From Cyanobacterium stanieri LEGE 03274 (lineage in GTDB: Bacteria > Cyanobacteriota > Cyanobacteriia > Cyanobacteriales > Cyanobacteriaceae), in assembly GCF_015207825.1 (NCBI RefSeq), contig NZ_JADEWC010000003.1, positions 62,001 through 126,000 on the forward strand: a stretch of DNA of 64,000 nt. Reading direction: 5' to 3'. Numbering within the stretch: the stretch's first letter is position 1; every line of letters begins with the position of its first letter. A program made the position numbers and the translations under genes. Of this stretch, positions 3 through 14,515 are shown piece by piece. Below the pieces are notes generated by a model. It was not told where the DNA came from, did not search any database, and worked only from the letters and a program-made list of their open reading frames with translations.

Positions 3-824
3 ATTGCTATTTGGGCTAAATACTTAGCAAGGGTAAAAACTAAAGTTATCGTATCTGAACATAACACTTTGTCTGTTCATGCCAAAAATCAAACGGGTAG
101 TGAAAAATGGTCTCCATTATTCGCAAAACTATTTTATCCCTTAGCGAATGAGATTGTTACTGTGTCTCATGGTTCTGCTAAAGATTTAGCCAAAGTGACA
201 GGTATCCCACCGTCAAAAATAAAAGTAATTTATAACCCTGTTATTACACCAGAATTATTAGCAAAAGCCCAACAATCAATCAATCATCCTTGGTTTGAGG
301 CCCAACAACCACCAGTGATTTTAGCGGTCGGTAGATTAAATCAACAAAAAGATTATCCGACTCTTATTAAAGCATTTGCAAAAGTGAAACAAATAAAACC
401 TTGCCGTTTAATGATTTTAGGTCAAGGTCCTGAAAAGAAAAAACTTAATGATTTAATTAATCAATTAAATTTAAAAGAAGACATAATCTTACAAGGTTTT
501 GTCGAGAATCCCTATGCTTATATGAAAAAGGCAACAATGCTAGTACTATCTTCTCAATGGGAAGGGCTTCCCACCGTTTTAATCGAATCTTTGGCTGTTG
601 GTACCTCTGTTGTCTCAACTAATTGTCCTAGTGGTCCAGAGGAAATTCTTGATCATGGTAAATACGGTACATTAGTACCTATTTTAGATGTTAAACTTCT
701 TTCTGAAGCAATACTGGATATTTTATCAGGAGAAATTAAATCTATTGATACAGAATGGTTGGAACAGTTTACCTTAGCAAAAGTTACGCAACAGTATGTA
801 GATCTTTTTTCTGTTCCTCTTTGA
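3..824 (+). CDS. Glycosyltransferase, GT4 family (5' end outside the window)
   Basis: The reading frame is open from base 3, so the gene starts before the window and only about 273 C-terminal residues are visible. They form the donor-binding half of a GT-B enzyme: a linker with VILAVGRL, a LMILGQGP strand, and the retaining-GT motif EGLPTVLIE, whose two glutamates are spaced as in the E-x7-E motif that contacts the nucleotide-sugar. Enzymes of this class add sugars to lipid-linked or polysaccharide acceptors at the cytoplasmic face of the membrane. A TTG at base 69 could be mistaken for a start, but the residues before it continue the family sequence. It is followed by a GT2 gene on the same strand 95 bp downstream. 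The family is certain, the sugar and acceptor are not readable. Confidence 0.9.
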   Translation: MAIWAKYLARVKTKVIVSEHNTLSVHAKNQTGSEKWSPLFAKLFYPLANEIVTVSHGSAKDLAKVTGIPPSKIKVIYNPVITPELLAKAQQSINHPWFEAQQPPVILAVGRLNQQKDYPTLIKAFAKVKQIKPCRLMILGQGPEKKKLNDLINQLNLKEDIILQGFVENPYAYMKKATMLVLSSQWEGLPTVLIESLAVGTSVVSTNCPSGPEEILDHGKYGTLVPILDVKLLSEAILDILSGEIKSIDTEWLEQFTLAKVTQQYVDLFSVPL

Positions 825-919
825 AGGTATAAGCACAAAATGAATGTATAAATGCGCTTGTTTTGTTATTTAATTTGAGCAAATCACATATCATTAAATA
901 ATTATACTTCCCAGCAATC

Positions 920-1939
920 ATGACAAAAAAAGTAACCATTGTAACTTGTACTTTCAATAAAGGCGAGTCTAATAGAGCCTCACTACAAAGTATCATAGAT
1001 CAAACTTATCAAGATTTTGAGTACATTATCGTTAATGATGGTTCTACTGATAACACAAAAGAAATTTTAGATGAATTTACGGCACTCGATAATCCTCAGT
1101 TAACAATAATTCACCAAAAAAATAAAGGATTTATTGATAGCCTAATTGATACTTTAGAAGGAATTGATACCCCTTATATTGCCATTCATGGTGCGGGAGA
1201 TATTTCTCATCTAACAAGACTAGAAAAACAAATTGAACTATTAGAGTCTGACTCTTCTATCGGTGCTGTTGGCTGTCACGTAAGAAAATTAACACATGAA
1301 GGAAAAACTATAAGAACAACTAAAGATAAGAAAAATAAACTGTTAATAAATGATCCTCAAGAATTATTTTTTGGTAACTACTATACACATGGAGAAGTAA
1401 CCTTTAGGCGTTCAACATATATTCAAACTGGAGGTTATAGACGTTTTTTCAAATATGCTCAAGATATAGATCTATGGTTGAGAATGCTAGATTTTTCCAA
1501 GTTGGCAAAAATTGACTCTATTCTTTATGAACAAATATATATGCCTAATAGTTCAGTGGCTTCTGATTACAAAAAAGTGGAGTATCAAGCTAAGTTATTT
1601 TGTTTTGCCGTGTTTTTGTCAAAACAACGATTACAGGAAATTTCAAACCCCATTGAAGCAAAATGGGATAAGTTATTTGAAGAATTTTGTGATAATCTTG
1701 ACGACAAGGACAAAGACTTTATCAGTGGCAGAATAATGGAAACCGCTGGAATCAATTATATTCAAACTCGCAATAATGCTGTATTAGCAAATGCCGCCCG
1801 TAGAGTCCTCACAATAAACCCTGAAAATCATCCTTCCAAACGATATATAAAATTAAGAATTTTAAGTATTATAGATAAATTTGGAGATACTAAATTTTGG
1901 AAATTTTTAATTAGAAAACTATTCAATACTTTCTATTAA
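920..1939 (+). CDS. Glycosyltransferase, GT2 family
   Basis: This 339-residue protein has an N-terminal GT-A fold: the opening strand TIVTCTFNKG, then EYIIVNDGSTDNT, which binds the nucleotide of the sugar donor. The place of the metal-binding DXD motif is occupied by HGAGD (around residues 90-94), so only the last aspartate remains. The acceptor-side helix has the usual QDIDLWLRML pattern, with the acidic residues expected of the catalytic base. About 100 C-terminal residues are charged and unassigned. It follows a GT4 gene on the same strand, suggesting a shared polysaccharide or glycan pathway. Substrate unknown. Confidence 0.88.
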   Translation: MTKKVTIVTCTFNKGESNRASLQSIIDQTYQDFEYIIVNDGSTDNTKEILDEFTALDNPQLTIIHQKNKGFIDSLIDTLEGIDTPYIAIHGAGDISHLTRLEKQIELLESDSSIGAVGCHVRKLTHEGKTIRTTKDKKNKLLINDPQELFFGNYYTHGEVTFRRSTYIQTGGYRRFFKYAQDIDLWLRMLDFSKLAKIDSILYEQIYMPNSSVASDYKKVEYQAKLFCFAVFLSKQRLQEISNPIEAKWDKLFEEFCDNLDDKDKDFISGRIMETAGINYIQTRNNAVLANAARRVLTINPENHPSKRYIKLRILSIIDKFGDTKFWKFLIRKLFNTFY

Positions 1940-1978
1940 AAATACACAACCTGATATGTATAAAAATTATACTTAATG

Positions 1979-3052
1979 TTATAAATACTTCCCTGTTTGA
2001 CCAACAAAATTTTCTGGAGTAAATATATTAGTTAATTTAGCGTTTATAAATCTTAACTGACGTTGTTTTAGATAGAAAGGATATGTCAAAGCACGTAATT
2101 GTATAAACTCTTGTCTTTTCGACTCAGGCATTGAAACCCAGTCTTGATATTTAGGAACAGCTTTGGTAGTCAAAAAATTCTGCCATTTAGAGATAGTATT
2201 CTCCGGTTGTACTTCTTTAGCTCTGACTTGACTATTTTTAAATATTTTTTCTCTTAACGGTATATTTTCTTTTAGTAGCTTAATAGTTGATAAAAGAGAG
2301 TCAAAAGAACTAACTTCCAAATAATCCAATTCACTTTGTCTTTCTGCCTGATATGCAGATTCACACCCAAATATAGCGGGGACACCAGCCAACCAAGAGT
2401 TGTGAAGTTTTGACGCTGGTTTCCAAGTGTGATCCCAACTATAACCAAATTTACGGATGGCAACGATCGCATCTACTTCACTATAATCATTCCAAGAAGT
2501 GGGCGGAATAATTTGCCAATTTAAGTCTAATTCTTTTAGTGTTTTTTTCCAAGATGATTGTCGGAGTGGGAGAATAAGATTATTTTTTTGTCCAAAAAAA
2601 GCAATATTTTTAAAAAAATTACCACGTTGAGGATTTCTAGGAATTAGTCCAGGTTGTGTCCAAAAGGGAATATATGAACTTTCCCAAGAATTTAAAAATT
2701 TCTTATGCACTTGTTGTAAAGGATTTTGCACAACATGAAGTTGTGCATAGGGATGTCTTCCCCGATCGCCCTGTATCGCAACAAGTAATAATTGCGAGTT
2801 AGGCTTAAGAGTATCCGATAAAAGTGGTCGGTGAGAAATGCAAATCCCTTCCAAAGGTATCATATTAGTAAAATAACAAGGAAAGTTACTTTCTTTCAAA
2901 TATAAATAAGTTAATAATGTCCATGCGCAATCTCCAAACTCATGAGTTCCTTTCCGTATTTGCCATTGCCAATATTCACCAACATTTTTTGGCAATTCAT
3001 GAATAGAGCATTTTGATTCTGGTAGATAGAAGTAGATAGGTGGAATTATCAT
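1979..3052 (-). CDS. Hypothetical protein, possible GT-B-like glycosyltransferase
   Basis: A 357-residue protein without signal peptide or membrane segment. It is rich in Trp and Tyr. The segment around residues 215-250 (SWLAGVPAIFGCES, then a helix starting with YQAERQSELDYLEV) looks like the donor-side loop and capping helix of GT-B enzymes such as exostosin or GT1-like proteins, and the final third (LREKIFKNSQVRAKE and following) resembles the C-terminal helix of that fold. It sits between a GT2 gene and an HpsE-like GT2 gene, 71 bp downstream of the latter on the same strand, which supports a role in glycan synthesis. I do not recognise a named family; the glycosyltransferase call is inference from weak motifs and context. 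Confidence 0.55.
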   Translation of the reverse strand: MIIPPIYFYLPESKCSIHELPKNVGEYWQWQIRKGTHEFGDCAWTLLTYLYLKESNFPCYFTNMIPLEGICISHRPLLSDTLKPNSQLLLVAIQGDRGRHPYAQLHVVQNPLQQVHKKFLNSWESSYIPFWTQPGLIPRNPQRGNFFKNIAFFGQKNNLILPLRQSSWKKTLKELDLNWQIIPPTSWNDYSEVDAIVAIRKFGYSWDHTWKPASKLHNSWLAGVPAIFGCESAYQAERQSELDYLEVSSFDSLLSTIKLLKENIPLREKIFKNSQVRAKEVQPENTISKWQNFLTTKAVPKYQDWVSMPESKRQEFIQLRALTYPFYLKQRQLRFINAKLTNIFTPENFVGQTGKYL

Positions 3053-13969: not shown

Positions 13970-14280
13970 CATGACAGAGTTATTTTAGTAAACTTTTTTT
14001 ATTAAAAATTTACAAACAAAAATAGTTTGTTACATTATTTTCAGGAAAGAAACTTTTCCAGCGCACCTTATATGTAGTTTGAGTCCGCAATAATGTTTTT
14101 TAGTTGAGATGGGGAGTGGGGAGGATAAGGGGATAGGGTGATGAGGAGTGAGGTAGATAATAGTTAACGATATTGATAAGTCTTGATAACACTCAGATTA
14201 TTTATAGTCAAAAAAAATCCCTTCTCCTAAGCAAGAGAAAGGAAAAAAGAAAAAACTACGGCAATTATTTAAATATTTGA

Positions 14281-14314
14281 AAAAAAAAGGGACTTCTTCA
14301 TGAGGGAAGCCCCT
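14281..14314 (-). terminator. Rho-independent terminator of the ncRNA
   Basis: On the minus strand AGGGGCTTCC pairs with the GAAGTCCCT side across a short loop, followed by eight T residues. No protein gene on this strand ends nearby, which is what pointed to a noncoding transcript. Confidence 0.75.
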
Positions 14315-14480
14315 AAATAAATTGAGGAAACAATTTAACACATTAAGAACAATTTTCACCTTCGCCATCGAGGCTTAATGAGTGATTCATAAATCACCGA
14401 TAAAGCCAAGCAAGTTTGTGGTAATTGTCAACAACCCTTGGGACTGCCTTCGTTACTGCAAACTTATTTAAATAACTACT
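14281..14480 (-). ncRNA. Structured noncoding RNA, about 200 nt; 6S RNA candidate
   Basis: On the minus strand a near-consensus sigma-70 promoter (14487-14515) is followed about 200 nt later by a hairpin with eight T residues, and no significant reading frame lies between. The transcript can fold as a single rod. UAAAUAAGUUUG near the 5' end pairs with CAAUUUAUUUA near the 3' end. GACAAUUACC pairs with GGUGAAAAUUGUU further in, and GGCUU...AAGCC with GUGAU...AUCAC forms the apical hairpin. Large unpaired arms separate the outer and inner stems. A closing stem, central bubble and terminal stem, with this length, is the architecture of 6S RNA, which binds RNA polymerase holoenzyme. I cannot confirm sequence identity with known 6S RNAs. 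It is not tmRNA, SRP RNA or RNase P RNA, whose motifs are missing. Confidence 0.55.
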
Positions 14481-14486
14481 AAAAAT

Positions 14487-14515
14487 AGTATAGCTTAATT
14501 GATATTTATTTGCAA
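14487..14515 (-). promoter_or_regulatory. Sigma-70 type promoter of the ncRNA
   Basis: Minus strand: TTGCAA (-35) and TATACT (-10) separated by exactly 17 bp. The start would fall near base 14480. Confidence 0.6.

Follow-up and report, generated by a model that had tools for sequence, protein, structure and literature searches.

A predicted small RNA confined to one cyanobacterial genus, with a nearly invariant core that may pair with the translation starts of iron and photosynthetic electron-transport genes

What kind of transcript, if any, is made from positions 14,281 to 14,515 of the window, the whole stretch of 64,000 nucleotides of Cyanobacterium stanieri LEGE 03274 analysed here? A preliminary description had proposed a promoter-to-terminator non-coding RNA of about 200 nt on the minus strand, next to nblA and with the outline of 6S RNA. 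Between promoter and terminator there are indeed about 200 nt without a convincing gene. The TTGCAA-17 bp-TATACT promoter that it named is present, with the hexamers at 14515-14510 (TTGCAA) and 14492-14487 (TATACT) of the minus strand. Its terminator hairpin was also found, at 14314-14288; it leads into a run of nine T (14288-14280), not the eight described. The transcript start, near 14480, was placed from the position of the -10 box. The unit is made up as follows.

14487..14515, minus strand: promoter TTGCAA-17 bp-TATACT; GTTGCAA and TATACT identical in 5/5 orthologues.
14280..14481, minus strand: predicted transcript of about 200 nt; orthologues in 5/5 genomes of the genus.
14280..14314, minus strand: intrinsic terminator, formed by a hairpin of 9 pairs and a run of nine T; helix 5 shows two-sided changes in 2 pairs.

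Taken from the window sequence alone, the promoter, terminator and fold signals are weak evidence, at chance level. The promoter scan returned 9 promoter-like sites in the region against 6.5 +/- 2.7 in shuffles, and the single-sequence fold is ordinary (z = -1.45; 17 of 200 shuffles were equally or more stable). The terminator scan, with its loop limit of 8, misses the terminator at 14314-14280 and lists a single one at 14243-14218. Comparison with relatives gave a different picture. Our sample of the window's genus comprised five genomes (G000 to G004, G000 being that of the window), and an orthologue was found in all five by BLAST and with model R1. GTTGCAA, TATACT and TAGTAGTTATT are identical in all five orthologues, while the 5' two thirds of the RNA are variable, most so in G001 and G002. 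The promoter-terminator unit stands above chance because it is conserved in every one of these genus members and because the base pairs of the modular fold described below beat shuffles. As judged from this conservation and from the covarying stems, a non-coding RNA running on the minus strand from about 14480 to 14280 is almost certainly a real small RNA, in line with the earlier proposal.

The covariation in relatives that the preliminary description had asked for was seen as compensatory changes in the stems of a modular fold, which consists of stem-loop 1 with its nested hairpin, stem-loop 2, the core hairpin and the terminator.

14412..14465, minus strand: stem-loop 1 with nested hairpin; helices 1 and 2 have 92.7% and 91.4% of cells paired, with 3 pairs changed on both sides.
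14372..14407, minus strand: stem-loop 2; helix 3 has 82.4% of cells paired, with 4 pairs changed on both sides.
14319..14336, minus strand: core hairpin AAAUUG-UUUCCU-CAAUUU; stem with 100% of cells paired, almost without variation.

This structure was obtained with RNAalifold from the same five-sequence alignment, leaving out 19 of the 66 predicted pairs (a long-range helix to sequence past the terminator, a small hairpin and one end pair). Over the whole fold, 89.7% of cells are paired and 9 of 47 pairs are changed on both sides. On each of five measures these 47 pairs beat all 500 shuffles, in a test that is tilted toward the modular structure because it used the five sequences that had yielded this structure and because 19 of 66 pairs were dropped. 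By comparison, the 6S-like rod has 4 of 29 pairs changed on both sides, three of those four falling in a hairpin common to the modular fold, and 34 of 500 shuffles reach it.

The rod bears directly on the proposal that the locus is a 6S RNA (RF00013). The length of about 200 nt is shared with 6S RNA, and a long rod can be drawn on the window sequence. A long rod with a central bubble is not kept in the relatives, and the modular fold is the better supported of the two. In the covariance-model check that had been recommended, the genome gave a single RF00013 match, away from this locus (G000:C18:30077-30259; 97.4 bits, cut-off 46.4), and no Rfam family matched the window at gathering level; near the locus, the 10 Rfam matches at E up to 10 did not include 6S. 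Class-wide, a 6S match was found in 362 of 388 genomes. With the 6S gene on C18, no RF00013 match at the locus and a weak rod, 6S identity was rejected and has virtually no chance of being right. The preliminary description would have given up the 6S reading if another 6S locus existed and homologues did not conserve the stems; the other locus does exist, and the stems that the homologues conserve are those of the modular fold. Its fallback, that an RNA other than 6S would be a new one, is favoured by the evidence.

The conserved block might instead encode a short hydrophobic peptide. The window has an open 56-aa frame (14198-14368, minus strand) beginning MAKVKIVLNVLNCFLNLF, and comparable residues can be made out by eye in the other four orthologous sequences. 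However, the frame runs through the terminator, lacks a Pfam match and has no common start codon: G004 and G002 have lost the ATG, and in G001 the GTG after it reads GTT. The core is also invariant at third codon positions, unlike coding sequence. A peptide is thus very improbable, and this reading was set aside for want of a common start codon and a Pfam match.

The most constrained part of the small RNA is a block of 34 nt, consisting of TTGTTCTTAATGTGTTAA, then A or G, then TTGTTTCCTCAATTT, so that one base in 34 varies.

14319..14352, minus strand: nearly invariant 34-nt core TTGTTCTTAATGTGTTAAATTGTTTCCTCAATTT, the proposed pairing region; 33/34 positions identical in 5/5 orthologues.

The core hairpin has the loop UUUCCU (14330-14325), which matches ribosome-binding sites of the form GAGGAAA by complementarity. 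The sequence of the loop region is UUGUUUCCUC, and within its complement, GAGGAAACAA, lies a ribosome-binding site. In single-sequence ensembles of the five orthologues the loop is unpaired with probabilities of 0.87, 0.51, 0.43, 0.88 and 0.96, that is, largely open in three and partly open in two. The 18 nt 5' of the hairpin are invariant to the same degree as the loop; among the conserved target candidates they are used by petA and partly by psbB only. The 34-nt core is probably the pairing region of the RNA.

Candidate targets were sought with a site pattern blind to gene function, GAGGAAAC followed by 0-12 bases and ATG, in the five genus genomes. The pattern as a whole was not in excess of a reversed control in these genomes. 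Twenty-one of its sites contain GAGGAAACAA, and we inspected 18 of them (one in G002 and two in G000 were left out); at 11 of the 18 a gene of 45 aa or more begins, and at 7 none does. The 11 gene-start sites belong to bacterioferritin (4 genomes), a 74-aa 4Fe-4S ferredoxin (3), psbE (3) and katG (1), and Pfam assigned the proteins a ferritin-like domain, 4Fe-4S domains, cytochrome b559 and a peroxidase, respectively.

We then compared leaders inside and outside the genus by the longest contiguous Watson-Crick complement to the whole core at leader positions -40 to +5, a contrast that is inflated because the target genes were chosen by carrying the motif. For psbE the values are 13, 13, 9, 13 and 9 in the genus and 5-7 outside (12 of 12 leaders), where 8 of the 12 leaders read GGAGGC in place of the genus's GGAGGAAAC; a further psbE-like match in G001 (61% identity) was left out. 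The ferredoxin gives 15, 15, 15, 12 and 10 in the genus versus 4-8 outside (11 of 11); shuffled cores would be expected to give 0.035 matches of 15 nt in 1118 leaders. For bacterioferritin the longest complement is 11 in all four genus genomes with the gene, none having been found in the incomplete G001, versus 5-6 in the 8 leaders parsed of 11 outside, two of the eleven being unparsed and one not retrieved. The genus conserves the psbE leader well regardless of the site, whereas the bacterioferritin leaders look unalignable except at the site, and bacterioferritin is for this reason the more telling case.

The remaining candidates are less uniform. At petA, G000, G003 and G004 each have 13 contiguous complementary bases and, past a bulge, a second run, while G002 has 7; the values for three genomes outside the genus are 7, 7 and 6. 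A 12-nt site at psaF is present in 4 of 4 genus genomes and also in 2 of 3 outside (the psaF Pfam match, on a 72-aa piece, scores 24.2 bits, under the family cut-off of 27). These two are sister genera, G007 (L336) and G011 (L337), in which the RNA was not found, and the site may be maintained there by another RNA or as a ribosome-binding site itself. The exact motif at katG is restricted to G003, three others reading GAGGCAA. The psbB leader matches the core in part. G004 lacks the site at a cobA-like methyltransferase gene (named by eye), three more leaders of this gene in the genus being unparsed. In the mgtE and DUF1257-type leaders, GAGGAAAC occurs in one or two genomes and is not kept in the others. 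Within the G003 sample, no site was seen in the psaL, cpcA, psaC, psaD, petC, sodB or petJ-like leaders, which have at most 8 contiguous complementary bases.

Statistics blind to these choices were taken from sixty evenly spaced 20-kb stretches of G003 (38%), which yielded 1130 leaders with starts assigned by a simple rule. There was no excess in duplex energies over 40 shuffled cores, nor in contiguous matches over 200-3000 shuffles: 5 of 1118 leaders have at least 11 contiguous matches, against 4.4 for shuffles. The five are those of petA, psaF, katG, the cobA-like methyltransferase and a STAS-like protein (the last also named by eye). Iron-motif proteins, 22 of the 1130, pair no better than the rest (p = 0.45). 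The missing excess of sites and the missing iron-motif enrichment are what would be expected if the RNA acted in trans on other targets or in another mode, such as protein binding, with the iron and photosynthesis sites a coincidence; such a role would also leave room for the invariant 18 nt that so few candidates use. Against this stands the finding that all 11 function-blind gene-start sites fall in four iron-protein genes, for three of which the inside/outside contrast holds, and we regard coincidence as improbable.

Of the properties expected of a regulatory small RNA, its own promoter and terminator and a conserved pairing region were found by computation, and sites at target starts recur across species for psbE, the ferredoxin and bacterioferritin and in part for petA, with no overall excess. 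On this basis we lean, with reservations, toward a trans-acting antisense small RNA, restricted to the genus, that would block translation of mRNAs for iron proteins and photosynthetic electron transport. By computation it is an independent transcription unit, of about 200 nt, whose promoter and terminator are conserved and whose 5' stem-loops vary, unlike the nearly invariant core. The core would pair with the ribosome-binding sites and start codons of the mRNAs for cytochrome b559 (psbE), the 4Fe-4S ferredoxin, bacterioferritin, cytochrome f (petA) and perhaps psaF. Because the nearly unchanging stretch fits their ribosome-binding sites, the RNA probably turns these genes down, and under stress this could reduce the use of iron or the photosynthetic flow of electrons; high light or iron starvation is a guess at the inducing signal made from the target set. 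In its mode of action such an RNA would resemble IsaR1 or RyhB.

RyhB, known from enterobacteria, spares iron through antisense pairing; the likeness is one of logic only, the hosts being others and no sequence relation being expected. Closer to hand are two RNAs of Synechocystis, IsaR1 (iron-stress activated RNA 1) and PsrR1 (SyR1), of 68 and 131 nt according to an excerpt of PMC6202907, against about 200 nt here. As is proposed for the genus RNA, IsaR1 pairs with mRNAs of iron and photosynthetic proteins and PsrR1 with ribosome-binding regions of photosynthesis genes. The targets given for IsaR1 in excerpts of PMC6202907 and PMC8136909 are Fed1, PetJ, SufBCDS, SodB, PetABDC1, AcnB, HemA and ChlN, and those given for PsrR1 in the latter excerpt are psaJ, psaL, psbB and cpcA. 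PetA and a ferredoxin are thus shared in kind with IsaR1, although our 4Fe-4S protein is not equated with Fed1, and the psaJ target of PsrR1 has its counterpart in the psaF in question here.

This overlap of target kinds, the partial match in the psbB leader and the psaF site in sister genera without the RNA, as if used there by another RNA, would all fit a strongly diverged PsrR1 or IsaR1 of the genus in place of a new family. Several differences make that unlikely. The lengths differ, and in G003 the psaL, cpcA and sodB leaders have at most 7 contiguous complementary bases. Among the IsaR1 targets covered, petA has a site in 3 of 4 genus genomes and the sodB, petC and petJ-like leaders of G003 have none; the promoter showed no convincing Fur-type site. 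PsrR1 was recognised in S. elongatus by BLASTN/GLASSgo (excerpt of PMC6091082), whereas the genus RNA goes unrecognised even in sister genera, which makes membership in that family unlikely; from both RNAs it is set apart here by their descriptions rather than their sequences. Under Cyanobacterium stanieri, the one organism name used, the literature searched gave no paper on a small RNA.

The range of the RNA was examined with R1 and with the core pattern. At E up to 0.05, R1 matched 5 of 291 genomes of the order, all in the window's genus, and none of the other 286; strongly diverged copies could be missed because 15 first-look candidates were scored per genome listed. BLAST among 60 relatives matched six genomes, the five of the genus and G014, whose weak 52-nt match sits within an open reading frame. 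With R1 at E up to 5, 22 chosen genomes outside the genus gave weak matches (best E 0.155), and none of the 14 of 18 that we read was convincing. The core pattern with up to 3 mismatches did no better than its reversed control outside the genus, in a search of 15 family genomes. Thirteen near-matches were also retrieved and read. Among public contigs, where records very near the window's genome may be absent, the exact pattern occurs in 7 genome records and 1 viral record; the sole record scoring as a homologue with R1 is that of G001 (PXEJ01000061.1, uncultured cyanobacterium; 97.2 bits), the others reaching at most 23.6.

Two further likenesses to the core were noted. An exact match lies at 1937-1956 of L050, an IMG/VR contig, and is probably due to chance because its surroundings give only 18 bits with R1. 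At 261-282 of L373 (G010), an intergenic AAATTGTTTTCTCTATTT is followed by a GGGAC...GTCCCTTTT hairpin, faintly like the core (9.1 bits with R1).

A more tentative proposal, to which we give somewhat less than even weight, is that a genus-specific RNA unrelated by descent to IsaR1 or PsrR1 took over an iron-sparing and photosynthesis regulon, with sites at psbE, the ferredoxin, bacterioferritin and petA only where the RNA exists, as co-evolution would leave them. If the antisense small RNA is real in this form, it would be one more small RNA controlling cyanobacterial photosynthetic and iron genes, and a compact case for the joint origin of a regulatory RNA and its target sites; what makes it compact is that neither the RNA nor, for three genes, the sites are present in the sister genera examined.

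The preliminary description had also placed the RNA next to nblA. This holds in the window, where nblA (Pfam NblA) begins 522 nt downstream, but not in G002, G003 and G004, where no NblA-like frame was seen by eye within about 1.5 kb downstream; in G001 the linkage is not judgeable because the contig ends at most 153 bases past the RNA on that side. The cyanobacterial small RNA NsrR1, of Nostoc, represses nblA (excerpt of PMC6166021). In the present case nblA is no more than an adjacent gene, not seen beside the RNA in G002-G004, and the pairing of its leader with the RNA is poor (-7.6 and -10.0 kcal/mol). On these two grounds, control of nblA in cis or in trans was rejected. G004 has a solute-binding-protein gene like that of the window (Pfam) upstream of the RNA; in G003 such a gene is found on the downstream side, in convergent orientation.

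Consensus strings for Fur, NtcA, PhoB and RpaB gave no outstanding site in the promoters: the lowest values in 25 uncorrected tests were an RpaB-like 14/16 in G001 (p = 0.03) and, for the window, a Fur-like 11/14 (p = 0.05). In cyanobacteria the sites bound by Fur vary. An inverted repeat TACTA-N4/5-TAGTA at 14477-14490 (minus strand) spans the -10 box and the start and is a possible operator; it is kept in 4 of 5 orthologues, G003 having one mismatch. On the 3' side, the second terminator hairpin lies further downstream, at 14243-14218 on the minus strand, and GCCGTAGTTTTT, 3' of the first terminator (within 14218-14279, minus strand), is kept in 4 of 5 loci despite differing neighbour genes.
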